Assembly (NCBI GenBank): GCA_022393335.1
Contig: JAJEKB010021564.1
Span: 949,643 to 1,013,642 of the forward strand
Origin: Macrotrachela quadricornifera
Taxonomy: Eukaryota > Rotifera > Eurotatoria > Philodinida > Philodinidae
DNA: 64,000 bases
Reading direction: 5' to 3'
The translations under genes and the position numbers were made by a program. Positions 5,239-60,039 of the stretch are shown here, piece by piece (the stretch's first letter is position 1; each line of letters begins with the position of its first letter). Below the pieces are notes generated by a model. It worked only from the letters and a program-made list of their open reading frames with translations, searched no databases and was not told the DNA's origin.

Positions 5239-6278
5239 ATGTCCCAATAAGTAATGTATGCCGTATAGAAGTATCTATTTTTCTATTTAGGTTCATTTGA
5301 AATTTCTGATTGAATACAAGTAAAATCATTTAAAAGATGTTAGGTATTAATTTCCATACTGGAGGGCTATACTAACCTCTGTCTATAACATGTTTAATTT
5401 TTTAGATTTATATCAAGTCAATATTATAAATTCACTTAAGATAGAAAATATCAATCAATATATGTGCTTTATTATTCTCACTTTTATATTAAAGAAAAGA
5501 CATCATTTTAGATATCTACAACTAATTAATTTAGGAAAAACCGATTCTTATTGAAATGAAAGAAAAATTAATCGCATAAAATAAAAATCATTAAAAAAGA
5601 AAATCTATTCTCTTGAAATAAAATAATTGAAAACAATCATTGAAAAAATATCAATTGTAAAATGAGTTGAAGTCGTATTGATCATGTGAAGAGTGTTGGT
5701 AGAAAAGATATTCAAAGATAAATATACAAATTAGATGGTGTATTTACGAAAATATTTCGAAAAATAATTATCGGAATGTTGAATATGAAATGTTTTTGTA
5801 GAATAGGCAATATATTGATCGGGTCGAATAAGAAAGGCGCCATCCCCTGAATTTTGACTCATGCCAAGAACGCGAAATATTTCTTTTGTGTCTTCTGAAT
5901 ATTGAAATTGATGTATTTTAATCAAATGTGAATAATAATCTTGAATAAATTTAATAAATAGAAACAATTTGTTGGAATTTATTTTTTGTGAATTAACCCA
6001 TTCAACCCGATTCAGTTTTCTCGAAAATTTTTTTCAAAAGGTTTTTTCGTGGACATTTACCTTTTAATAAATACACTTAATGACCTTTTCGTTGTCTTCT
6101 ATCGATTATTTATCGTTCTTTTCTTTATATCACTACACAATGAGTCATTTTATTCTGCCGAGCTGAATAATCGCTCGGATTACTTTTTCGTTCTTTCCCA
6201 TATTACGCAAAATATGTACTTGAAAAAGGAGGAAGTTTCCAGCTTTTTCTCTCTTATTCTTGTCTGTGTATGGCTTTG

Positions 6279-6288
6279 TATATAAATA
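6279..6288 (+). promoter_or_regulatory. Probable TATA box of the piggyBac transposase
   Basis: TATATAAATA lies 26 bp upstream of the chosen ATG (6314), inside the element and after its left end. A normal 25-30 bp spacing would leave almost no 5' leader. Confidence 0.45.
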
Positions 6289-6313
6289 CGACCGGAGTTT
6301 TGGAATAATTCAC

Positions 6314-7990
6314 ATGTCGTTCGAAGAAATGGACACAGAAGATAGCGCTAGCTCACTCGATGAAGTGGATTCTCTGGATGACGATTTTGATGCAATGTGC
6401 CTTGAATCTGACGATTCTAATGAAGAAGATACTGGTGATGACATGGATTCACATGCTTGGAATGAAATAGAACCCGAATCCGATGCAGAATTCATGGAGG
6501 ATTATGGATTAATCGACGAAGTAACTTCTGTTTCAGGCGATAATACAATCAATCCTATTGATTGCTATCGACATTTCGTAACGGACGAAATTACTGACCT
6601 CATAGTTCGTGAAACTAATCGATACGCACAGCAATACTTGCAAAATCATGGGATTAGTAAACGGTCAATACTTCATCAATGGAAACCAACCACTAATGAA
6701 GAGATACTGAAGTTCTTTGGAATCATTATCGAAATAGGGTTGGTACAAATGCCAAAACTGAAATACTACTGGAGCAGTAGTCAACTGTACGGTTCAGACA
6801 TCATTCGGAATGCTATGCCGAGGGAGAGATTCGAATTACTACTCAAATTTTGGCATTTTTCGAACAATGATAATGCAAATGCGAATCAAGATAGGCTTTC
6901 CAAGTTGAAACCACTCTTGAATTTATTGAGAGCAAGGTGTTTGTCGGTATATGTACCTGGTTCGATTGTGACTGTTGACGAAACTATGATACCGTGGCAA
7001 GGTAGGCTTTTATTCAAACAATATATTCCTGGAAAAGCCCATAAGTACGGAGTAAAAATGTACAAGTTAGCGGCTATCAATGGATACACCTGGAATTTTT
7101 TGATTTATACTGGTCAACAAGATCCTATGGCAGGTCTTGGACATGCCCAAACAGTCGTGATGAATCTATTGGATGGTCTTGAAGGATGCTATCGAACTGT
7201 GGTAGCTGACAACTTCTTCACTAGTATTCCTCTTGCCAAACGTTTGCTAGAAGATGATACATACCTTATTGGAACATTCAGAAGTAATCGTGTGGGATCA
7301 GGCAGCGAAGTTGTTCAAAGAAATCTCAGACGTGGGGAAATTTACGGTTTGGAGAATAAAGACGGCGTAAAGCTGATCAGGTGGAAGGACAAAAAAGATG
7401 TCTTGATGATATCTACACGACCGTCGCATTCAGCAACTGTGGTGAACACTGAAAGTACTACCAGCAAAAATGAACGTATCATGAAGCCATAAGTTGTGCT
7501 CGATTACAACAAAGGAAAATTAGGTAGTGATTTATCTGATCAGCTATCCTCATATTACACCTGTCTCAGGCGGTCAATAAAATGGTACCGGAAGGTAGCA
7601 TTTGAATTGCTTTTCGGGACGGTGTTGGTCAATAGCTATTTGATATACAAAGAAAACTACGTTGCAAGCAAAGTACCTATTCTGCATTTTCGTGAAAGCC
7701 TTGTTCGATCTTCACTACTTGGCGTGTCGTTCGAGAACCTGAAGCCAGGCGTGAAACAGAAACCAGCTGCTCAAGCAAAACGTAAGCTTGCTGACCATAA
7801 ACTCGAAGAAAAAGAAGGATTTGCTCGCGATGTTCGACGACGCTGTGCTGGATGCTACGAGAAAATTAGACAACAACAATCAAGAGAATCAAGCCTGGCA
7901 ACAGCGAAAAAAATAAAAACCTTTTGCTCTGATTGTGACAAGTTTTTTTGTCTTGATTGTTTTAACGAGAAACATTTCTCTATAAAATAA
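6314..7990 (+). pseudogene. piggyBac transposase with one in-frame stop
   Basis: DDE_Tnp_1_7 family transposase of about 558 codons, near full family length. The first ATG in frame (6314) follows a TATA box and opens an acidic N-terminus typical of the family. The catalytic triad is visible: VDETMIPWQG (Asp about 222), VVADNFF (Asp about 299) and IRWKDKKDV (Asp about 359). The C-terminus has the family's Cys-rich zinc-binding domain (CAGCYEK and CSDCDKFFCLDCF). A single TAA at 7490-7492 (codon 393) falls in the conserved stretch just before VVLDYNKG. The frame is the same on both sides with no shift. The upstream piece keeps the triad but loses the DNA-binding tail, so the copy is probably non-autonomous unless read through or wrongly assembled. 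Confidence 0.92.
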
Positions 7991-8099
7991 ATGACGCAGA
8001 AATAGCTACGACAAAGCAGAAAGCTCATATTGTGTAGGGCACGGTCTAAGAACAAGGAGAGAAAGTCCTTTTCTGTTAGATATTTTGAAAACACAAAGT

Positions 8100-8119
8100 G
8101 AGACCCACCGGTGGGTCTC
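8100..8119. repeat. Perfect 20-bp palindrome near piggyBac right end
   Basis: GAGACCCACCGGTGGGTCTC is its own reverse complement and ends directly at the 15-bp terminal repeat. There is no counterpart at the left end. It may be a transposase-binding or hairpin feature of the right subterminal region. Confidence 0.7.
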
Positions 8120-9544
8120 ATCGGGTTGAATGGGTTAACTAAAACGAGTAGATGAAAGTAAATTTCTTGATCATTATTATTTGTCGATAATGAAGTGAAA
8201 AAATTCTCCGAATGAGTGTAGATATACGGCATTCGATCGCCGGCCTGAACTTTATCTTTTTTCGAACATTGATCTCCTATAGAAAATTCACTGTGACGAT
8301 AATGAATTGCAATCATTGAAATACGTCTGAAGAAAGTATCTCGAAGAAACGATATATGATTAAGTAAAGGAGCAATAATATATTGATAAATATATGGTAA
8401 AATGTAGATTCTAATAAATTGATGAATATAATGTGAACTTGTCATAAATGAAAATATTCGATCAGTTGTATGAACAAGATTTTTTGCAACATGAATTCTT
8501 TCATCATTATAAGTATTTAATAATAGATTATTATTGATAGTTTTTTGTTGAATAGTAAGAGCAAATTTCCAAGCTAAATTAAAAGCATCTTGAAGTCCTG
8601 TATTCATTCCTTGTCCACCAGCAGGTGAATGAATATGTGCTGCATCACCCAATAAAAAATATTTATTATCATATGAAAATGATTCAACATGACGATGATG
8701 TGTTCGATAAATTGACATCCATAATGGATCATATAAATTTATTTTTCTTTCAAGATGTTGACTTATACATGATTGAATATCTTCTAATTGTAAATCTTTT
8801 GAACATTTCAAAAGTAATTCATGAGGAACAGTACTAATAACACGATATCTATTATCATATTCAGGATTCTTCAATGGAAATAGAATACCCATACCGGATT
8901 TTGTTATATTAAATTGTAAATCACCTAAATCTGTTCCACTTCTTACTACATCGAAAAATTTCACATGACAATCAATGACAAAAAGAGTTTCTTCATGTGT
9001 ATTACCGGGAAATGATAAATGAAGATTTTGTCTTACTTTTGAATGAGCACCATCACAACCACATAAATATTTTGTGCGAATTTTAAACAAATTTCCTTCA
9101 ATACTCTCACGAGAATCTTTGATTGTACATTCAATCAGTTCATTATTCATATTATTTAATTGATCAAAATCTATTAATTCACATTGTCGATCGATTTGAA
9201 TATTTTGCTTACGAAGAAATTCTTCTAATAATTCTTTCGTTTTTGATTGCTCCAAGGTGAGTAAATATCAACTTTAAGTCGCTTTTTTCCATTAAAAAAT
9301 CCAGTAAGACCCTTGATAATTTCACCACGACAAACAGCTTCATCTCCAAATCCTAATTGATCAAAGATTTCAAGAGAACGAGCATGGACAACAAGTGCAC
9401 GTGATTGAGTTGTATGATTAATGGATTTGTCAAATATGCGAAATTTAATACCATAGACTGAGAATAAACAAGCTAAGAGTAAACCAGTTGGACCTGCACC
9501 AACAATAATAACATCAATTATTTCTGGTATTAACGAGGACATTA

Positions 9545-19000: not shown

Positions 19001-20445
19001 ACGACTTAGTATTAGATTGCATAAACGACGACTCTTTGTATGATTTTCGCAAGATTTCGTATGATCAACAAGATTTTATGTCCAATTTGTTGATCCGGAT
19101 CCTTTTAATGATAAACGCGAAGCTTGAATGTCGAAACTTTCATGATTCTACACTTTTTCCATTCAAAAGATACAACGGCTACGCAGTTCACCCATATATA
19201 GTCGTATTTAAGTACTAATAATATTTATGTTCAACTGAGTCATATATCGTGTAGCGAGTCAAGCGTTTTCGTCGTGGAGGCCCTCTCTCGGACGAAAACT
19301 CTATAATACTAAGGTGAATATAGATCCATATATGTTTGTTGTTCTTGCAAAATTTATATTATAATCTCTGACGAGAACTGTTTTACGAAAGATTCACGTG
19401 AGAGCCGCATATATAAACCAGATAATTACTACATACATTTGAATGTCCCTGTCTAGGATGGTCAACTACAGGCGGCATGAATATTGTACGAAATCAGCAC
19501 ACAGCATCCAAATTGGCAAATGGACAAATCTTAGTTGCTGGTGGGTACAATGCAGGTATTTTGAATAGTGCAGAAGTGTACGATCCATCAACAAGACTGT
19601 GGGGAAGTACGAACAGCTTGAGCACTGCACGATATCTGCACACAGCAGCCACATTGACGAATGGACAAATCTTAGTTTCTGGTGGATACAGTGGTCGTTA
19701 TCCTTCGAGAAGTGCAGAAGTGTACGATCCATCAACAGGACTTTGGACAGCCACGAGCGGCATGAACGCTGAACGAGTCGCGCACAGAGCATCCGTGTTG
19801 TTAAATGGAAGCGTTTTAGTTTCTGGTGGATCCAATGGTCAGTATCTTTTGAGTAGTGCAGATTTATACAATCCATCAACAGGACTCTGGACACTCACGA
19901 GCAACATGAACACTCCAAGAAATCAGCACACAGCAACCCTATTGGCAAATGGAAAAATCTTAGTTGCTGGTGGGTACAACGGCGTTCACTTGAGTAGTGC
20001 AGAATTATACGATCCATCAACAGGACTCTGGACACCCACGAGCAACATGAATAATGCACGATACCAGCACACAGCAACTCTATTAGCAAATGGAAACGTT
20101 TTAGTTGCTGGTGGAATGGGTGGTAATTATTTGAGTAGTGCAGAATTATACGATCCATCATCAAGGTTCTGGACAACTACGGGTAGCATGAATACTATAC
20201 GAAGTCAGCACACAGCAACTCTATTAGCAAATGGAAACGTCTTAGTTGCTGGTGGAGCCGATGGCAATTATTTGAGTAGTGCAGAACTGTACGATTCTTC
20301 AACAGGACTCTGGACAAATGTGAGCAACATGACCACTGCACGATTCCAGCACACGGCATCCACAATGGCAAATGGAAAAGTCTTAGTTGCTGGGGGACTT
20401 GATAACAGTTATACTTATTTGAGTAGTGCAGAAATATATGGATAA
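13059..20445 (+). CDS. Secreted Cys-rich, Thr-rich, Kelch-repeat protein (5 exons)
   Basis: Reconstructed exons: 13059-13093, 13146-13168, 13258-13580, 14044-14199, 19457-20445. The first two encode MKQILKTILLSIFVVGLATG, a clear signal peptide split by a 52-bp intron. Exon 3 is Cys-rich (SCGCCPSPDC and further Cys pairs). Exon 4 is a mucin-like Thr/Ser linker (STTPATSWTTVATS). Exon 5 has seven Kelch repeats of about 48 residues (pattern QHTATLLANGNVLVAGG...SSAELYDPSTGLWT), which probably form a beta-propeller. The last three introns are phase 1 and every junction restores an intact codon. All introns start GT and end AG. Repeats 4-7 are the most alike in DNA, suggesting recent internal duplication. 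Intron 4 is 5.26 kb, very long beside the other introns. Further exons within it, or two separate genes, cannot be excluded. Role unknown; extracellular adhesion or carbohydrate binding is an inference. Confidence 0.78.
14640..14935. repeat. Degenerate (TGAAGTCT)n minisatellite
   Basis: About 25 spaced copies of 'gaagtct' with short variable spacers, ending in 'ccccctagcatatat' and then a (TA)n run to about 14985. It lies inside intron 4 of the Kelch gene. Confidence 0.8.
14936..19456. other. Rest of Kelch intron 4: repeats, no exon seen
   Basis: Contains the TA microsatellite, a 75-bp hAT-like MITE (16200-16274), and a GC-richer block at about 16980-17130 bounded by inverted words 'ttgaattcaa'. 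A copy of a dispersed repeat lies at 18448-18490. Many 'aagatctt' and 'tacgatttt' words fill 18640-19080. I saw no Thr-rich or Kelch exon here, but short exons could be missed. Confidence 0.45.
16200..16274. mobile_element. Miniature (75-bp) hAT-like MITE
   Basis: Ends are TAGGGGTG on the left and TAGGGATG when the right end is reverse-complemented. The 8-bp target duplication GGGAGAAG is perfect (16192-16199 and 16275-16282). At 75 bp it is hardly more than two ends. The left end equals the right end of the 259-1198 element. Confidence 0.8.
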
Positions 20446-37366: not shown

Positions 37367-39748
37367 TCACACTAATTTTTGATTGTTTTCTTGTACTGTG
37401 AGAGGACCAAACATATCATGAGAATATTGACTGTTATTATTAATATTAATATCTGAGGTCACATTTGAAGAATATTTTAGATTGCTTTGTTGTATGATTT
37501 TTTGTACTTGATCTATATTATTCTGAACCTTTTTAATGCCATCATTTGATTGCGAATAGTTTGCTTGTAAAATTTTAAGACATTTGGTTAGAAATTGCAT
37601 AGCTTCTAAATAATTTTTCATCTGAAAATGAACTTCACCAATTTGTTATAAAGTCCATCCTATATCAGGATGATTTTCTGAAAATATTTGTTCTTGAATA
37701 GAAAGTATTTTTATAAAATCTTGCAATGTTTCCTCATATAATCTCCTCTCTAAATTTATAGTAGCAATTACTTGAAGACAACTAATCATAGCTGAATAAT
37801 TAGGAGGATTACATTCTTCGAAAATAGTCAATGCTTGCTTATAACAATCGAGTCTTTCATCATAGATACCTATTATATCACCAATTTTCATGATAGTGTG
37901 AGCAATTCTAAGAAAATTATTTTGAGTAGTCTGCTGCTCATCAGAATAATTTAAATCATGCATATAATCCCTCATTTTAGTATATAATAGCATCATTCGA
38001 TTTAAATTCTTCTTATAATCTGGATGATCATTAGGTAAAATATTTTCATCCATATCTAATGCAGAACAATAATATTCAATTGCACAATTATATTGAAATT
38101 TATTTTCGTATACAGAACCAATATTCCATAAAGTCGATGAAATATATGGATGTTGACTTGGTAAAAGTCTTTGATACATTTCATATGCTTTCATCATATA
38201 ATTTAATGCAAGATCATATTCTTTATTAATTTGATGAACCAAACCAATACATATCATAGTATGAGCTTTATTTGTATGATCATTAGGATAATTTATTTCA
38301 TCAATAGTTAAAACTTGTTTATAATAATTCATTGCTTTTTCATATTCACCTTTCTCTTTATAAATAAAACCAAGATTATGTAATGAATTTGCTATATGAA
38401 TATCATTATTAGGAAAACAAGATATTCGTATATCATATGCATATATATAATTTTCTAATGCGTGATTTAATTCTCCTTTTTTAGTATATATATTAGCAAT
38501 TTGATCATAAATATCAGGAATATCTTGATGATCTTTTGGTAATGTTTTTAATAACATATGAAAATATTTTTCTGCTTTATCAATTTGTCCCATTTCATTG
38601 AAAAGAAGAGCTCCAAATAAAATTGTTGAACTAATTCCTTCTATTTCTTGTCTAATTGATTTAATATATTCTTGAACATTTTTTGAATCATCATCAGTTG
38701 CTGTCATTTCAATTATCCATAAGTGTAAATTTGAATCAAATTGAATATAATCAATCTTAAATACAGATCCAAGATTGAATAAAACTTCTTGTTCACCTTT
38801 TATTTGACTATATTCATCAATATCAGCAAAAATTATTTTATTAAGATTAGAATGAATTTTAATCTCAAATAAAACAGTTTTCATTTCATCTGTATCGATA
38901 GTACCAGCAATAAATCCTTGAGCTATATTTATATTACGACTCGTTGAAAAAAATCCATTTATTGATATAAGAACACCGATATTGTTTTGTAATTTATCGA
39001 ATTCTTCTTTTGACATTTGTTGACCACGATAAAGTGTGAATACTTCAGTATTAATTTCCTTTTTTTTACTTTGTTTTTCCAATTGTGAACATAAATCAAT
39101 AATATAAAATCTAAATCAATACAATAAATCAATATCTTCTGTTCTTAAAGCTTTGTTAAGTAGTCTATAAACAAACGAATCACGTGTATACCATTCAATT
39201 GCTTTATCCGATGTATAACTATTTCGAAATAATTCGATTCTTTTTAATTCAATTTGATTTGTTCGATAATAATCTGAACATTTATTGAGCATATCATTTT
39301 TCGCATCATTTGTGTGTGGCATTTGTTTAAGAGTATCGATTAATAATTGATTCCATAAGAATGATGCTGATTCTTTTGATAAATCTCGTATTGATTTTTG
39401 GTTTTGTTGATTAAATAAACGAAATGCTATTAAATGTTTTGATAATAAATTAATAGAATTTTCAACTGATTCAATTAGAGAAATTTCTTCGGTAAACATT
39501 CCAACAATTTTCGAATAATTCTTAACTAATTGTGTATGTTTATTCATATCATTCAAACGAAATATAAATATTGAATTAATTGTTAATAATGGATGTATCT
39601 CAGGTATAACTTCATATGATAATATTTCACTAATAATAAGAAATATTTTTTCATTTTTAATTTTTCGAATATAATCTATACATAATTGTGGTTTTGTGTA
39701 AAATTGAACAAAATTATTTAATCCAATTAATAATGTTTGTGTATGTAC
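37367..39748 (-). pseudogene. Arginine mono-ADP-ribosyltransferase with TPR repeats, broken
   Basis: An intronless minus-strand reading of about 790 codons. The upstream part resembles the non-catalytic N-terminal region of bdelloid ART-TPR proteins. Next is an ART domain with the R-S-ExE signature: TLYRGQQMSK (Arg), GFFSTSRN (STS) and KGEQEVLF (EQE). These are the NAD-binding and catalytic residues that transfer ADP-ribose to arginine. Then come at least six tandem TPRs of the 42-residue kinesin-light-chain type (ANSLHNLGFIYKEKGEYEKA and similar). Two in-frame stops break it: TGA at about 39116-39118, before the ART domain, and TAA at about 37646-37648, in the C-terminal TPR region. The frame is unchanged across both. 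The 5' side ends abruptly at the Mutator-like element at 39749. The ART domain itself is uninterrupted. Confidence 0.85.
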
Positions 39749-46747: not shown

Positions 46748-49700
46748 TCAATAATCTAATATTTCTTTCCATAATCGATGAGCCATTGCAAATTCTTCAC
46801 TTTCAGCAGCAAAGGTACGAAGATCATTTTTAGGTAATGATTGAATTTTTTCTTTAATTTGTTTTAATTGCATGAGATTGACATTATGTTGAACACCTCT
46901 GCCTGCCTTGATATCATGTGAAGGCATACGCGTAATGATTTGTAATTTACGATTTATTATGTCAGGCCAAGGAGTAAATTGATATTTGGCAATGAAACCA
47001 ATTGGAGACCATTTCCAGACGGCACCTTCTATCGAATGTCGACCTATACTATAATTGACAAATGGATAAGAATGTATGAAACGAGAATAAAATGTAACAC
47101 CGAACTTTTCCTCTCCAACAGCTGGATTATAAACATATTTAGAACGTTGTTTTAATAATGATGTGAAACGTTTTAATGGAATCGAATCATCACCTGACAT
47201 TGTAAGTGAACGAAAACGAAATGCTGTTGTGTTATTATAATGGTCTTGTTTAGCTAACATTTTACGAAGATTAGAATGAACAAGAAATTCGGGTGTATTC
47301 AATACAATTTTCCATGCGTTTGGATATATTTTTTCGTATTCCATAATTTCTTCATCAACTAAATGAGCATCGAAATATGCATTTCGTGTTGATACTACTT
47401 TCCAAGTATTTGGAGCTTCACGACGAATAATCTGTAATGACTGATCAGTACTATTATAATCAATTAAAATAGCCATATCAAACATAGGTACATGATGACG
47501 AATCCAAAATGGTAATAATACTTCTTCATTGAAAAAATGAGAAATTAATATTACAGGTCTACGTATTGACGGAAATACTAATGGCCAAGATAATGGTTTA
47601 TTAGAGTTTTGTATAAGTATTTTATTTGTATTTTGATTCATTTTTAAAAGTTGTTGATGCGGAAATGGACGTATTAGGAAAATATTCTTCATACCTTTTT
47701 CAATAGTTTCATTGCGAATTTTTTTGACAATTTCATCCCAAAAATTCCATGCAAAAATTATAATTGTCAATGGATTAGTTGAATTATATTTACTTAATTC
47801 AGAAGTTGAACGTACTGGTATAGATGTACCAGGACAATAAGTATTTTGTTTCAAAGGTGCATCATCAACTACATAAGAAATATTCCACGATCGATTTGAA
47901 ATACCTAATAAGAAATGTAAAAGAACCATGCCTTTAGCAGCAGCACCATATGCAATAATAGTGTGATTTTTAGCATGAAGAGATTCTAATTGTCGTATAA
48001 TCCATTGACGCATGATTTTAGCTTGAGCTTCATATTTAATGTAGAACCATGAATCGTTCATACCAAGATAAAGTTCTTTCTGTAAAGCTAATGATAAAGA
48101 TGGTGATAGTTCATGTCTATTAGAAATAGAAAAAGAAATGTTTGATAAATTTGCTCGTTGAAATGTCACTAAACATGAACGTCCATGGATTGGTGTAATT
48201 TCAATTTGTACTATAGTAAGTCCTACTATATGAGCAAGTTTTGCAAATGAATGCGCTGTAAAAAAAGATATATGCTCATGATAAATAGTATCAAATTGTC
48301 CAGTTTCATACATTTCACATTGAGATGTTTGAATATACAATTTTGTTGTTATACCCATAATAGCAACACAAGCACGAAGAAATTGTATTGGATTATCCAC
48401 ATGAGCAAGTACATTCTGTGCAATAATTACATTTAAAGATTCCATTGAAGGTATATTTGGAAATGTATCAATACCCCAAAAGCCAGTATAAATAGTATGA
48501 CCTGATGCTCTTGCAATATTAGCTAAATTCTTGGCTGGATCAATACCTATAGTTTTCCATCCACGTTTAAGAAATTCATTTAATTGACTTCCATCGTTAC
48601 ATGCTATTTCCAGTACAGTTCCATTTTTAATTTTACTTTCATTAATTACTTTTTCAGCTAACCATGAAAAATATTTTTTTAAACTATTACTTGTACCACT
48701 TTGATATAAATAATGACTGAAAAGATATTTTCGATCAACAATATGTGATAGTTGTGTATGATGACATATTGGACATCGTACCAAATGTAATGTAAATCGT
48801 TTTAATTTTAATGAAACGTCTACATCAGTTTTGAAATCATTAGCAAGAGGTTGATTATCTAAATCTAATATTGTATACATTCGACGTGAACCACACACAA
48901 CACATGGAATTGAATCATTGGTTAAACGTGATTGTCGACCAATACACATTTGAGGTACATGATTGATTAAATTTTTTATAGTCTCGGATAAATTGCCTTC
49001 AAATACAAAATTAAATTTAGTACGAAATTTAGTATTATTTAAAGAGAATCCATGACTGTCATCCTTTACAAGATGATCTGATGTGTCAATATGAGCTCCT
49101 GTTTGAAATGCAATAGTATTGGCAACATTAGAAATATGAGTTGAAAAAGATTGTAAATGAAATATATCGAATCGTTTAGCTTTTTTAGAATGTTTTATTA
49201 ATGTAGTAACAGCTCGCATAAGATCTTCCATACATAGATATGCACGATTCGATTCAGGATGAGTAACATGTAATCTTCCATTAAGAAAAGCTTGACAAAT
49301 TAATGCCATAGGAGAAAGATCAATACGTTGACTTGGAGAAAGGCCAATAACAGTACCAAATCGTAAACCAATTATTTGAGGAGTAGAAATGGTATTAAGT
49401 GTTAAATGTTCTAATATTTTTTCACGACGAAGAAGAGAAGAAGAATATAAATCTAATAGATCAATTTGAATAGGAGAATCTTCATTGAATAGTACTGATC
49501 CTGAACCTTCCGCAATAGCAGATGTTGATGCAAATATCAAAATTTGAGAAGGTAACATACGTTTAGCTAAATTATATATATCATTTACATTTTCATATTC
49601 AACTTCATTTGGACGATTTTGACACGTTGCACGACCTGTTAGACCTCCTAAATATATCACTACATGATATTTTTGAAGTACTTCACTTGATATTTCATAA

Positions 49701-49999
49701 CTTGCTTGTTTCGGATAAATACGATCATAACCAGTAACTTTCCAGTTTTTGTCTTTTTGAAAATGATTCAATAATCGTGAGCCGATATATCCAGAAGAAC
49801 CAATTATAGCGATATAGCACAAAGAAGATGGAAACGGTGCGGTACACGACAGGTCTTTCCTTGTAGCTTCCATATTAAATATAAATCCATTCAAAAAATT
49901 ATCTTTATAACGAATTTCTACTACATAAATGGATAAAATGACGATCAAAACACAAGCAGCAATGAATCTTATATTTGTAGTTAATAATCTACGACGCAT
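46748..49999 (-). CDS. Trimodular epimerase / sugar C-methyltransferase / glycosyltransferase
   Basis: A single 1083-codon frame without introns. Residues about 11-27 are a signal anchor, suggesting a type II Golgi or ER protein. Residues about 60-345 are an NAD-dependent epimerase/dehydratase (extended SDR) with GSSGYIGS and a STSAIAEG strand. The usual YxxxK is changed to YSSSL (about 185-189). Residues about 364-780 are a deoxysugar C-methyltransferase like those of antibiotic sugar pathways. Its zinc-binding start has CVVC (366-369) and CPIC (409-412), the SAM loop is EIACNDGSQL (about 464-473), and the catalytic-type motif is YHEHISFF (573-580). The family's C-terminal Rossmann part YGAAAKGM follows. 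Residues about 813-1060 are a GT2-like glycosyltransferase (ISHFFNEE, LIDYNSTDQS). Proposed job: making and transferring a methyl-branched sugar in the secretory pathway. The catalytic modules look bacterial; several NxS/T sites are present. No damage seen. Confidence 0.85.
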   Translation of the reverse strand: MRRRLLTTNIRFIAACVLIVILSIYVVEIRYKDNFLNGFIFNMEATRKDLSCTAPFPSSLCYIAIIGSSGYIGSRLLNHFQKDKNWKVTGYDRIYPKQASYEISSEVLQKYHVVIYLGGLTGRATCQNRPNEVEYENVNDIYNLAKRMLPSQILIFASTSAIAEGSGSVLFNEDSPIQIDLLDLYSSSLLRREKILEHLTLNTISTPQIIGLRFGTVIGLSPSQRIDLSPMALICQAFLNGRLHVTHPESNRAYLCMEDLMRAVTTLIKHSKKAKRFDIFHLQSFSTHISNVANTIAFQTGAHIDTSDHLVKDDSHGFSLNNTKFRTKFNFVFEGNLSETIKNLINHVPQMCIGRQSRLTNDSIPCVVCGSRRMYTILDLDNQPLANDFKTDVDVSLKLKRFTLHLVRCPICHHTQLSHIVDRKYLFSHYLYQSGTSNSLKKYFSWLAEKVINESKIKNGTVLEIACNDGSQLNEFLKRGWKTIGIDPAKNLANIARASGHTIYTGFWGIDTFPNIPSMESLNVIIAQNVLAHVDNPIQFLRACVAIMGITTKLYIQTSQCEMYETGQFDTIYHEHISFFTAHSFAKLAHIVGLTIVQIEITPIHGRSCLVTFQRANLSNISFSISNRHELSPSLSLALQKELYLGMNDSWFYIKYEAQAKIMRQWIIRQLESLHAKNHTIIAYGAAAKGMVLLHFLLGISNRSWNISYVVDDAPLKQNTYCPGTSIPVRSTSELSKYNSTNPLTIIIFAWNFWDEIVKKIRNETIEKGMKNIFLIRPFPHQQLLKMNQNTNKILIQNSNKPLSWPLVFPSIRRPVILISHFFNEEVLLPFWIRHHVPMFDMAILIDYNSTDQSLQIIRREAPNTWKVVSTRNAYFDAHLVDEEIMEYEKIYPNAWKIVLNTPEFLVHSNLRKMLAKQDHYNNTTAFRFRSLTMSGDDSIPLKRFTSLLKQRSKYVYNPAVGEEKFGVTFYSRFIHSYPFVNYSIGRHSIEGAVWKWSPIGFIAKYQFTPWPDIINRKLQIITRMPSHDIKAGRGVQHNVNLMQLKQIKEKIQSLPKNDLRTFAAESEEFAMAHRLWKEILDY

Positions 50000-53362: not shown

Positions 53363-55054
53363 CAGGTTGATTACGTTATTTTTGCTAGTTTTGTGTCGTT
53401 TGCTGTACTTATGCAATACATCGATTTTTTTTATTTGGACACAATTGGATAGAGCATCAGCTCTTTTATCAAATCACATAATTTGTTTGTTAATTTCCCT
53501 GGCTCTAGCCCAAAATTTTGATGAATCTCAAACAAGTTTGAAAAAAATTTTTTTAGGATTGTTGTCATGATTATTAATAGTTTTATTTTTCATATATATA
53601 AACAAAAACAAAGGACAATTATAAACGATGTTCGATATGAGAGCCTCGAGCTTTATATATCATTAAAACTCTCTTTGGCCAGGAAGCTAATACTTTATCG
53701 ATATAAGTCTGACTCATCTTTCGCCACTCACTCAAAAGCTTTTTTTTAAGTTCATCAAGAGAATGAATATGAATTTGATTCAGTTGTTGTTTCAAATACC
53801 CCCATATTGAATAATCCATTGATGCAGCATCAGGACTAACAGGTATTCATTCTTGTGGTGTTATATAATGAATTTTGTTTTGTTCGAAAAATCTAATTGT
53901 TTGTTCGGCAGTATGAGTTGGTGCCGAATCTTGATGAAGAAACCACTTCATTTTTCGTTATTTTGGAGATAAACGTGAAATATCTTGTGCTAAAAATGGC
54001 TTTAAAACCTTGTTAACGTAATAATTTGAATTAATTTTTGTACCAGGTGCAACAAAACGAAGTGCAGTTTTTCCTTGACTTGATACACCTCCCCATACCA
54101 TAAAACCTTTTGGTCGTGAAGTGTTTTGTTGAATAACCATTCAATCATAATCGGGATTAGTTTTTTTTATATAACATACTTTTTTTTTTCCACCAGTTCC
54201 ATCTAAATAAAACCAAGCCTCATCTGTTGTGATGAAGTTCTTATATCGACCACGTGCTAATCGAAGATAAAGTTGAAATGATCGCTGTCTACGTTTCGTA
54301 ATATTCGACGATGTCAACTTTTGAACTTTCTGTTTTTTTCGAAGAACAAATCCAGAATTTTTGATAATGTTCGAGACAGTCGATTGGCTGATGTGAAGAT
54401 CGTTAGCAATAGCACGTTGAGTTGGTGGATCTTCGACGTCAATTTTCTTAATGACCTTCTTAATAATATATGGTGTTTGTGATGGTTTTTTTCGAAAAAT
54501 TTTAATTGTAGATTCAGAATTTCTTTGACGGCCGACCTTTCGCTTGATATTTGACACAGTACGTTGAGATAAATGTATACCATCAAGTTTCAAAATGTTC
54601 AGAATTCGAGGCTGAGAATATCCTTGACGTAATAGTTGCAGAATACGTCCTTCGACAATATCGGAAATTTTCTTCCGTGGCATTTACTTGAAATTAATTT
54701 AAACGAATTGAACTAAAGAGGAAGGCTATAACTGTCATCAAGAGGAAAGAAAAAAACCGTTCAATATTTGATGCGCACGTGTTATCGCGAATACTGTTAA
54801 ACATGATGTAAGCAGTCTGTATATGAAAAATGAAACTATTAATAATCATGACAACAATCCTAAAAAATTTTTTTTCAAACTCGTTTGAGATTCATCAAAA
54901 TTTTGGACTAGAGCCAGAGAAACTAACAAACAAATTATGTGATTTGATAGAAGAGCTGATGCTCTATCCAACTGTCTCCAAATAAAAAAAAATCGATGTA
55001 TTGCATAAGTACAGCAAACGACACAAAACTAGCAAAAATAACGTAATCAACCTG
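53363..55054 (-). mobile_element. Full-length mariner-family transposon
   Basis: A 1692-bp element with ends CAGGTTGATTACGTTATTTT in inverted orientation and TA at 53361-53362 and 55055-55056. Terminal inverted repeats are long, about 210 bp. The transposase gene is on the minus strand. Two copies of the empty target are present elsewhere in the window (near 55725-55750 and 27390-27420). Confidence 0.9.
53619..54683 (-). pseudogene. Mariner transposase (DD37D spacing), three in-frame stops
   Basis: Starts MPRKKISDIVEGRILQLL, a paired-type HTH, with a second HTH (RAIANDLHISQSTVSNI). The catalytic residues are in TTDEAWFYLD, LHQDSAPTH and AASMDYSIWGYLK. Thirty-seven residues (counting one stop) separate the second and third Asp, the DD37D pattern. 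One frame runs through the whole length but is broken by TGA (54141), TAA (53958) and TGA (about 53845). About 354 codons, near full length for the group. No frameshifts are needed, so decay is by point mutation only. Confidence 0.88.
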
Positions 55055-57386: not shown

Positions 57387-60039
57387 CGAGGGAACCCAAC
57401 CAACTGATTAAAAGCTTTAAGGCTCATATTTATAGCATGGGTAGTATCTAGTCAGACTAGATGAATCCTAGAAGGATTTCCTTGAATGGACCTATTTGGC
57501 TAAGATATGAACATTTCAAGTTTATGATCAAAAGTGTGGATAGATTGTCTGTTGTGCATGAATTACCATAATGATGTGTTAAAAGAAAAATCTATTTTTT
57601 TCAAAATACTTATTGATTTAAGTATTTTACGCATCTTCCATAAGTCATCGTGAGAATGGTGTAGACATGCCTAAAACCCTTTTATTCGCTGATGTAATAA
57701 ATGGAAAAGCTAAAGCTAATACTGAAATCGTTAGAACAGCTGCAACATCATTTGTTAGTTTTTTTACGCAATAGTTTAGTGGATGTGATAACTAACGAAA
57801 AAATGCTCGAAACACAGGTCTTTTCGACACCAACTGCACGTGATGAAAGGCGATCGATCGCATGACTCTTCGCTGCAATTGTTTTGATCAAAAGAAAAAC
57901 AAGCCTCCGTGACATTTTGAAATGGACCAGGATTCTGTTTGGAGTAACCGCTAGCGTACCACGCAAGTTTTATCATAGGAACATATATAGAACTGCTTAT
58001 TTGATTATGAATTAGTGGCTGCAGACGTATAATATTGTTTCGTTCACTCATATTGATGTTGAGTTCATCTAATCGTATTCGATCATAGGTTTTACTAGCG
58101 ATAGCCTTCCATTGTCTATTAAAATAGACATCCAATGGTTGTATGAACGATGTATTTTTTGGAGGAATTGTCAGACGTTTGAGATTTTAAAAATTTTCAT
58201 AAAGACTTGTAGCTCCCTGTGTTGTCCACGAGTCGAAAAGTAACAGATATTTAGAATTTTTGGACAAAGATGGTGCGAGCACGTGGTTCCTCCAATATTC
58301 CACTAATGAAGCGGTTAATTTTCCAGAAGCACTACATGTGCAGACAACATTGTCTGGTTTAAACAAATGCGCCTTGATATTATCAGACATTCGGCCTTTG
58401 ATTTCTTTCAAACAGACAAAAACTGGTCCAATTAAATGTCCACCGAGACTGATTGTTTGCTGAACGGTATACGAGTATGTTGTTGCATTTATTGAACGTA
58501 CAGAAGCGACAGTCAGCTTCTCGCCTTGATATGATAATGTACGATTAGAATGGAGTTCCAGCTCTATTCCCATCTGATCGGTGTTAAGAATATTTTCATC
58601 ATCATATTTTTCAAAAATCATACGAGCTTCAGCTACAAAACTATCAGCTGATTGATTAATTAAATCTTGACTTTCAACTTGTCGTCTGGTAGCAAATTTT
58701 GTTATTTTTCTTGAGCATATGTTGTGTTGATGTTTGAAATTATCAATCCAACTGTGCGAAGCAGTGAAATTGTTCAAAGAATGCTCTTTAGCACTCATTA
58801 ACGCCCATCGTCTCAAGTCAAGGTCGTGTACTGGTAGTTGTTGCTCTCGCGCCTTTTCAAATTTATCAAAAACATATTCTTCGATCTTTTCGATTTTTTG
58901 TTTCTTGGTTTCTTGCGCTTCAAGATAATGACGAAATCGTGACATATATTGTTGATAGCGGACACGGGGAATACGAGCTTGAACAGTTGACCAACTACGT
59001 TTTCGTTTGCCTGTTTTCGAATCTTTTTCATCATAGTAATTCACTACTTTTTCCATATATTCAAGGCTATAGTGCCGTAGCAGATTCTCGCTCTCATGCT
59101 CATAATTATCATCATATGATTTGTCATCTTCATCATTGTCGCTGTATTCGTTATTGAACTCCTCCATCATTCTATCGAGTTCAAGAGTGGTGTTATTTTC
59201 AATTGAATATGAGGAACAGTTGTTGATCGATTCGATAGTATTAGACAAGTATTGCGCTAGTTCTTCTTCTCGCAGTCGGAACAGTGAAGAGAGCGTATTT
59301 ACCGATGTTGAGCTTTTTGAAACAAGAGTAGATAGTAGATGAACGACATTGTTAGTGTTAATCATGTTGACGTTTTTTTATTATTTTATCGCGGAGCAAA
59401 CTTGTCAATATATTTACTAATGATCTACGAAGCTTCTGAAGAATCAAAGAATATAAAACGAAACAATGTAGAAAAATATCATAGACAAATACAGAACATT
59501 TCAGTACAAAATAAAGTTTGTAATATTTCTATAGAAGGATTTCTTTATTCTCTCTTCTTTAATCTTTCTGACTATGAATGAAAAACAAAGAAACATCAAT
59601 CAAATGCAAATGAAAGATAAAGCATGAATCCCAAGGCATGCAAACGAAATAGCATATATAGATAAACAAGGAATGTATATGATTATACGTGAAATATATC
59701 TGGAACAGTCTTATTATTATAAGATATTAACACTTGGGGCCTCTTTTATTTTGCAGCTAGATCATCAAATGGGCATCACAAGATAGTTCTTTCAATAGTT
59801 CAACGAGTTATCGATAAGCGTTTCAACAATAAATTCTGTCTTGATATATGTTACCATTGTAATTCATGCACAACAGACAATCTATCCACACTTTTGATCA
59901 TAAACTTGAAATGTTCATATCTTAGCCAAATAGGTCCATTCAAGGAAATTCTTCTAGGATTCATCTAGTCTGACTAGATACTACCCATGCTATAAATATG
60001 AGCCTTAAAGCTTTTAATCAGTTGGTGGGATTCCCTCGT
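57387..60039 (-). mobile_element. Tc5/pogo-type transposon with long inverted repeats
   Basis: About 2.65 kb with inverted repeats of about 185 bp (57387-57575 and 59850-60039). They run CGAGGGAA-AACCAACTGATTAAAAGC through 'agcatgggtagtatctagtc' to 'tcatgcacaacagacaatc' in opposite orientation. TA lies at the left boundary (57385-57386) and TTA at the right, as expected for a TA target. One transposase gene on the minus strand. Confidence 0.85.
57776..59365 (-). pseudogene. Tc5/pogo-type transposase with one in-frame stop
   Basis: About 530 codons. The acidic N-terminal region (YSDNDEDDKSYDDNYEHES) is followed by a CENP-B/Tc5-type HTH (RRWALMSAKEHSLNNFTASHSWIDNFKHQH region). The DDE_1 core follows: LNTDQMGIELELH (first Asp), LLLFDSWTTQ (second Asp) and IPPKNTSFIQPLDVYFNRQW (third Asp). 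The C-terminus has Cys clusters (CSEESCDRSPFITCSWCRKDLCF), probably zinc-binding. A TAA at about 58187-58189 falls between the second and third Asp without changing frame, so the upstream piece lacks the full triad. Confidence 0.88.

Follow-up and report, generated by a model that had tools for sequence, protein, structure and literature searches.

A bdelloid rotifer gene for a putative sugar C-methylating fusion protein and its relation to a three-gene cassette of phages and bacteria

How an animal comes to carry, in one continuous frame, domains that resemble enzymes of bacterial sugar metabolism, and what the resulting protein may do, are the questions raised by a locus of the bdelloid rotifer Macrotrachela quadricornifera. 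The window analyzed here is the whole stretch of 64,000 nucleotides (assembly GCA_022393335.1, contig JAJEKB010021564.1, positions 949,643 to 1,013,642), and it contains an open reading frame (ORF) for a protein of 1083 amino acids, uninterrupted from its ATG. From stop to stop this frame measures 1098 codons, compared with a maximum of 136 codons when the window was shuffled 20 times by mononucleotides. An initial interpretation made from the letters only, hereafter the sequence-only reading, had described the same 1083-codon frame as a hydrophobic N-terminal anchor followed by an epimerase fold, a zinc-binding sugar C-methyltransferase and a glycosyltransferase (GT). Frame and anchor were both recovered: the protein is strongly hydrophobic from residue 9, and an AlphaFold2 model of the whole chain, built from a 25-sequence alignment (mean predicted local distance difference test score, pLDDT, 87.4; predicted template modelling score 0.86), contains a helix spanning residues 10 to 45, of which residues 35–45 are of low confidence. 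The protein joins several domains of known enzyme families, of which the short-chain dehydrogenase/reductase (SDR) domain and the GT domain are unusual (Table 1). With a probability of roughly 0.6, we read it as a multifunctional membrane-anchored enzyme which stems from a three-gene cassette of phage or bacterial type, was fused once before reaching the bdelloids, probably in a microbial eukaryote, and carries out both the C-methylation of a 4-keto nucleotide sugar and the transfer of the branched product.

Table 1. Positions of the fused gene, its domains and motifs, and nearby transposase frames, counted from the first nucleotide of the window.
Feature	Position	Strand	Basis
Whole frame: anchor, SDR, C-methyltransferase and GT, 1083 amino acids	46748..49999	minus	ORF, Pfam, structure model, genome copies
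Hydrophobic anchor, about residues 9–28; net charge +3 before and 0 after; type II orientation predicted	49916..49975	minus	hydrophobicity, charge
SDR/epimerase-fold domain, residues 61–355, GSSGYIG nucleotide motif, closest solved fold Cj1427	48935..49819	minus	Pfam, PDB profile, Foldseek
Changed SDR active site, residues 185–193 (YSSSLLRRE); lysine of YxxxK replaced by Leu189	49421..49447	minus	alignment
Zinc-binding domain Methyltransf_13, residues 366–427, Cys366/369/409/412	48719..48904	minus	Pfam, alignment
S-adenosylmethionine (SAM)-binding methyltransferase domain (Methyltransf_23), residues 456–598	48206..48634	minus	Pfam, fold, alignment
YHEH, residues 573–576, counterpart of TcaB9 Tyr222/Glu224/His225	48272..48283	minus	alignment
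C-terminal domain Methyltransf_14, residues 626–775	47675..48124	minus	Pfam
GT-A-like domain, residues 815–1083	46751..47557	minus	Pfam under cut-off, fold model
NTPEFL, residues 901–906, at the presumed DxD-E-F place of GT2_4-type enzymes	47282..47299	minus	alignment
DDE_Tnp_1_7 transposase frame	6260–7492	plus	Pfam-type match
Tc3-like transposase frame, under cut-off	54141–54683	minus	Pfam-type match
Tc5-like transposase frame	58187–59365	minus	Pfam-type match

In bacteria, C-methyl-branched sugars occur in antibiotics and surface polysaccharides, and the enzymes that make them share three Pfam domains, all of which exceed their cut-offs in the rotifer protein (SAM domain, 56 bits against 27; C-terminal domain PF08484, 98.4 against 23.5). 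The best match among solved structures by sequence is MtmC, the match to solved C-methyltransferases spanning residues 359–762, and the top Foldseek matches of the model are MtmC, KijD1 and TcaB9, with template modelling (TM) scores of 0.86–0.90 by target length. For the analysis of conservation, 120 of 293 protein matches were listed, and the 106 of at least 950 amino acids were aligned with the query, giving 107 rows. The four zinc cysteines, arranged in two CxxC pairs, are each present in all 106 fused proteins, and the CVVC, CPIC and YHEH motifs named by the sequence-only reading lie where it had placed them. The active-site residues of TcaB9, taken from the titles of solved mutant structures, are Y76, H181, Y222, E224 and H225; with positions counted by hand they align with Y430, H533, Y573, E575 and H576, each retained by 103 or more of the 106. 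As far as sequence can tell, the domain is a sugar C-methyltransferase of the TylC3/TcaB9 type with a full zinc and active-site set, and its function, C-methylation of a 4-keto nucleoside diphosphate sugar, is well predicted.

Prokaryotic or phage relatives exist for all three modules, bacterial ones having been expected by the sequence-only reading. They were collected by profile scans (alignment A1), from which the best 80 loci were retained for each source, out of 311 confirmed viral stretches and at least 581 confirmed GTDB ones; the counts of cassettes that follow are therefore not frequencies. In 12 of these 160 loci, SDR, C-methyltransferase and GT are encoded by separate, adjacent genes on the same strand and in the order of the rotifer domains (L007, L009, L016, L020, L042, L066, L072, L081–L084 and L117). 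Seven of the cassettes lie on viral contigs, and the others belong to Methylobacterium sp. J-070, two Hyphomicrobium metagenome-assembled genomes (MAGs), a proteobacterial MAG and an Aeromicrobium MAG. A looser threshold adds L088 as a thirteenth trio and eight more loci with the SDR–C-methyltransferase pair only. Since L007 carries RecA and exonuclease genes and L020 an endolysin gene, at least these two look like phages. In L020 and L042 the cassette is flanked by a further related GT gene downstream and by a gene resembling a GDP-mannose 4,6-dehydratase upstream. No frame matching two of the domains was found in the 160 loci at E 1e-6, a first scan of GTDB with the query alone returned no relatives, and the eight INPHARED phage records with a match do so in the C-methyltransferase region only, with no trio. 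A giant-virus source of the fused form found no support either, as single-protein scans with the fused proteins P0107 and P0110 gave no relative in IMG/VR and the 80 viral loci contain no two-domain frame. No published description of the fusion or the cassette was found in a literature search covering the titles and abstract openings listed. The collinear cassette is likely the precursor of the fusion, judging from the shared order of its modules.

The SDR domain departs from its stand-alone relatives. Residues 63–276 match Pfam Epimerase (E 1.7e-10), and the nearest solved structure is Cj1427, both by sequence (E 7.7e-7, residues 107–355) and by fold (TM 0.78–0.80 by target length). The tyrosine of the active site (Tyr185) is kept in 104 of the 107 rows and GxxGxxG in 103, but the lysine of YxxxK is replaced in all 106 fused proteins, by Met in 69, Leu in 34, Ile in 2 and Phe in 1. 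All 106 aligned fused proteins have Arg192, three residues past the lost lysine, and Glu193. Arg192 is found in 107 of 107 rows, Arg123 in 102 and Glu164 in 104, whereas in 41 stand-alone SDRs (11 from cassettes and 30 of 120 other matches) position 123 is usually V (38), position 164 G (35) and position 192 L (30). R213, G215, T216, V217 and G219 are conserved in the fused SDRs and common to the stand-alone ones. One MAFFT alignment paired the stand-alone lysine with R192 by way of a gap; it was rejected, as Cj1427 and local-pair alignments pair Tyr with Tyr and the acid at Y+8 with E193 free of gaps. Independently of that alignment, YDxxK is intact in all 120 of the 893 stand-alone relatives that were listed, and also in the 11 cassette SDRs examined. 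Since stand-alone and cassette SDRs keep this motif and the fused proteins have lost its lysine, the SDR was rebuilt at or after fusion. Given the lost lysine, the domain is classed by its sequence as an SDR fold and not as a conventional SDR enzyme. A lysine-to-methionine swap is a classical way of disabling SDRs, so either Arg192, one helix turn on, would take the place of the lysine or the domain may no longer be redox-active.

Methylation at C-3 presupposes a C4 keto group, and the neighbors of the bacterial and viral genes bear on where it comes from. Cj1427 is described in PMC10680097 as a C4-dehydrogenase acting on GDP-heptose. In the viral loci, a 4,6-dehydratase-like gene was detected in 2 of 12 with an SDR beside the C-methyltransferase (seven trios and five pairs) and in 57 of 68 without (p 1e-5), and after dereplication at 90% in 2 of 11 and 43 of 50 (p 3e-5), counts that come from related loci with flanks of at most 6 kb, some of them cut short, and from one probe, the L020 4,6-dehydratase. 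The scarcity of dehydratase genes where an SDR is present suggests that the SDR supplies the 4-keto sugar, as Cj1427 does for GDP-heptose. The most serious competing explanation is that the SDR domain only binds the nucleotide sugar or serves assembly, without redox chemistry, and that a separate 4,6-dehydratase makes the 4-keto sugar on which the C-methyltransferase alone acts. The universal loss of the lysine, the replacement of mostly V, G and L by R123, E164 and R192, the intact motif of the listed stand-alone SDRs and the dehydratase upstream of the L020 and L042 cassettes all agree with it. However, the nucleotide motif, the SDR tyrosine and the R213–G219 residues are still conserved, which is unusual for an idle domain, and an enzyme in the lumen would require the import of a 4-keto sugar made in the cytosol. 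On balance, we hold this explanation to be possible, though clearly less probable than the multifunctional enzyme.

The C-terminal domain was harder to place. The sequence-only reading had assigned all domains to families, and for the epimerase and the three C-methyltransferase domains Pfam bore this out; the Glyco_tranf_2_4 match (residues 824–911) reached 20.2 bits against a cut-off of 27.5, and a PDB profile search gave a best E of 0.16. A separate model of the domain (pLDDT 73) matches the GT-A enzymes SunS/ThuS, PcManGT and GalNAc-T1 with a best E of 5e-7, at a TM score of only 0.43. The model thus lends modest support to a GT-A fold, and a GT function is moderately supported. At residues 901–906, where we take DxD-E-F to be the usual motif of GT2_4-type enzymes, the domain lacks DxD: 94 of the 106 fused proteins have T or N as residue 901, and 100 have E as residue 904. 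Among 90 GT matches, 80 have [NT]xxEF and none DxDEF, so the change of DxD probably predates the fusion. The sequence-only reading had mentioned neither this change nor the loss of the SDR lysine. One could therefore suppose that the domain binds an acceptor or product and is not an active GT, other enzymes transferring the sugar, as the missing DxD, the sub-threshold Pfam score and a region visibly less conserved in the alignment than the C-methyltransferase would allow. The fold matches to GT-A enzymes speak against this, as does the sharing of [NT]xxEF by the stand-alone cassette GTs, one of which, from L020, passes the PF13704 cut-off (27.9 against 27.5), and the retention of H836, D841, E904 and F905 in 106, 104, 101 and 100 of the 107 rows, respectively. 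We regard an inactive GT as rather improbable.

Taken together, the domains suggest the following course for the multifunctional enzyme. An imported nucleotide sugar would be held by the SDR domain, which, as in Cj1427, may provide or stabilize its 4-keto form. The C-methyltransferase, whose catalytic residues are in place, would methylate the carbon next to the keto group, presumably C3 by analogy with TcaB9, KijD1 and MtmC; re-reduction of the keto group would fall to the SDR or to the methyltransferase itself. The GT-A domain could then act in the lumen of the secretory pathway and hand the branched sugar on to a glycan, a step suggested by its fold, the anchor and the charge bias. The role proposed by the sequence-only reading, building and attaching a methyl-branched sugar, appears likely. 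A hydrophobic segment precedes the SDR in 67 of the 107 fused proteins, and the charge of its flanks favors a lumenal C-terminus in 39 of these, the opposite in 12 and neither in 16. Lumenal SDRs with an N-terminal anchor have precedents such as UDP-xylose synthase. Three anchorless fused proteins, P0107, P0110 and P0095, are the first branches of the fused C-methyltransferase clade (support 99) and could represent a stage of the fusion that preceded membrane anchoring.

Several observations weigh against a multifunctional enzyme of the secretory pathway. The catalytic lysine is absent from every fused SDR, which makes oxidation by the usual SDR mechanism doubtful, and the 11 cassette SDRs behind the dehydratase argument all keep it. 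Two of the seven viral trios do carry a dehydratase, and the bacterial loci show the same trend without significance (1 of 9 with an SDR, 25 of 71 without; p 0.26). To these are added the GT domain's missing DxD and low Pfam score. Forty of the 107 fused proteins have no hydrophobic segment before the SDR, some N-termini perhaps being mispredicted. An excess of sequons, which is a weak signal of lumenal location, is clear in some members only (z 0.1 to 3.0 in 11 rows of the bdelloid group and –1.4 to 2.9 in eight others), and a four-cysteine zinc site would be unusual inside an oxidizing lumen. The fullest version of the proposal is put forward as a tentative possibility: in bdelloids and several algae, one secretory-pathway polypeptide would perform the oxidation, the C-methylation, the reduction and the transfer of a sugar, Arg192 replacing the lysine and the GT-A domain doing without DxD. 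If true, the glycans of eukaryotes, animals included, would contain C-methyl-branched sugars as a genuine component that has been overlooked.

The origin of the fusion was assessed from its spread and from quick trees with approximate likelihood-ratio (SH-aLRT) support, without bootstrap. Close relatives of the fused protein occur in other rotifers: the closest named proteins are those of Rotaria and Adineta, and bdelloids are the only animals among the organism-named matches listed. Full-length fused proteins, 40–42% identical, are also found in the chlorarachniophytes Lotharella globosa and Amorphochlora amoebiformis and the dinoflagellate Effrenium voratum. The green alga Tetradesmus obliquus has a shorter relative covering 65% of the query, and a partial protein labelled Chrzof1, presumably from the green alga Chromochloris, comprises the C-methyltransferase end and the GT. 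Thus, the fusion is patchily present in several eukaryotic lineages. The C-methyltransferase tree has 95 rows, hand-chosen (37 of the 107 fused rows and 58 of the 160 loci); the SDR and GT trees hold 25 of the 107 fused rows, 11 of the 12 cassettes (the near-duplicate L083 was left out) and 20 of 120 SDR or 28 of 90 GT stand-alone matches. Fused rows form a single clade in each tree with SH-aLRT 100, 37 of 37 for the C-methyltransferase and 25 of 25 for the SDR, and the GT clade includes two shorter proteins, P0201 and P0204, which are perhaps fragments. In the C-methyltransferase tree, the fused clade, all 12 cassette enzymes, 19 other viral rows and two other GTDB rows together make up one group of 70 (support 99), the remaining 25 GTDB rows standing apart. 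Within the fused clade the query groups with six named bdelloid proteins and four further rows in a clade of 11 (99), outside which lie Lotharella, Amorphochlora and Effrenium. Its two subclades (96 and 95) each contain Rotaria and Adineta, which suggests a duplication before these genera split.

The sequence-only reading had proposed that separately acquired bacterial modules were fused in the animal lineage. The predominance of bdelloids among organism-named full-length matches would suit a fusion in a rotifer ancestor, yet fused proteins in protists and algae, among which bdelloids are one shallow subclade, the single fused clade in each domain tree and a ready-made cassette of the same order in bacteria and viral contigs contradict it, and protist records derived from rotifers are very unlikely given the divergence. 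We therefore reject a rotifer-specific fusion and consider fusion in a rotifer ancestor highly improbable. The simplest reading has bdelloids receiving the gene from a microbial eukaryote, with old inheritance and many losses as the alternative; the sister of the bdelloid clade differs among the SDR, C-methyltransferase and GT trees.

The frame is a genuine rotifer gene. The window is part of a contig (C4781) of a 450-Mb assembly, and the same genome contains three further open copies on other contigs, 95% (1083 amino acids), 64% (1072) and 58% (1041) identical. Four pairwise comparisons by NG86, without a significance test, gave ratios of nonsynonymous to synonymous substitution (dN/dS) of 0.24, 0.22, 0.24 and 0.18. 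An assembly artefact or bacterial contamination, which prokaryote-like domains and the lack of introns might evoke and of which the sequence-only reading had named contamination as an outcome that would overturn it, can practically be dismissed because of the assembly, the open copies on four contigs and the dN/dS of 0.18–0.24, besides the close Rotaria and Adineta relatives and the animal-type transposase genes nearby. The gene appears to be intronless, as read from the uninterrupted frame and the open paralogues, and a locus split into separate genes is unlikely. Decayed C-terminal remnants of the gene (L165 and L166), with stops and 81–85% identical, lie on the same contig at C4781:1037627-1039511, about 24 kb past the window end. 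Judging from its frames, the region around the gene is rich in transposons, and the transposase families concerned have a eukaryotic range that includes animals. Other frames of the window encode a FAD-binding monooxygenase-like protein (7855–9255, minus; PF01494, E 1.9e-40), possibly a second acquired gene, a kelch-repeat protein of 322 amino acids in one frame (19477–20445, plus) and a tetratricopeptide-repeat protein (37646–39082, minus) whose N-terminal match to an ADP-ribosyltransferase family is weak (23.3 bits against a cut-off of 23.4).

Because the complete catalytic set for C-methylation is conserved in a protein of eukaryotes, C-methyl sugars are predicted for rotifers and algae. 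An apparent phage or bacterial cassette would here have been turned into a single protein of a eukaryote, and its SDR active site, which was rebuilt with the usual lysine lost, poses a clear question of enzymology.

Among known systems, TylC3, TcaB9, KijD1 and MtmC (PF08421, PF13489 and PF08484) share with the rotifer protein the domain order, the four zinc cysteines, the SAM domain and the Y/H/Y/E/H active site. They are stand-alone bacterial enzymes, whereas the rotifer domain is the middle of a eukaryotic fusion and 24–26% identical to them in structural alignments. MtmC of mithramycin biosynthesis, a bifunctional C-methyltransferase and ketoreductase, offers a parallel in that a single chain both methylates and reduces a keto group; unlike the rotifer fusion, it has no SDR or GT domain. 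Cj1427 (PDB 6vo6/6vo8) and the rotifer SDR both carry an R-x-x-T-V-x-G-x-S segment, but Cj1427 retains Y-x-x-x-K (YGIDK) and the rotifer domain has lost the lysine. With the GT-A enzymes of Glyco_tranf_2_4 (PF13704) the rotifer GT has in common an N-terminal half with NEE and D-x-STD motifs, and it differs from them in the lack of DxD and its score under the Pfam cut-off. The viral and bacterial cassettes have the same three modules as the whole protein, in the same order, and a related GT bearing [NT]xxEF; they consist of three separate genes with YDxxK in the 11 SDRs examined, whereas the rotifer has one gene and its SDR has lost the lysine.

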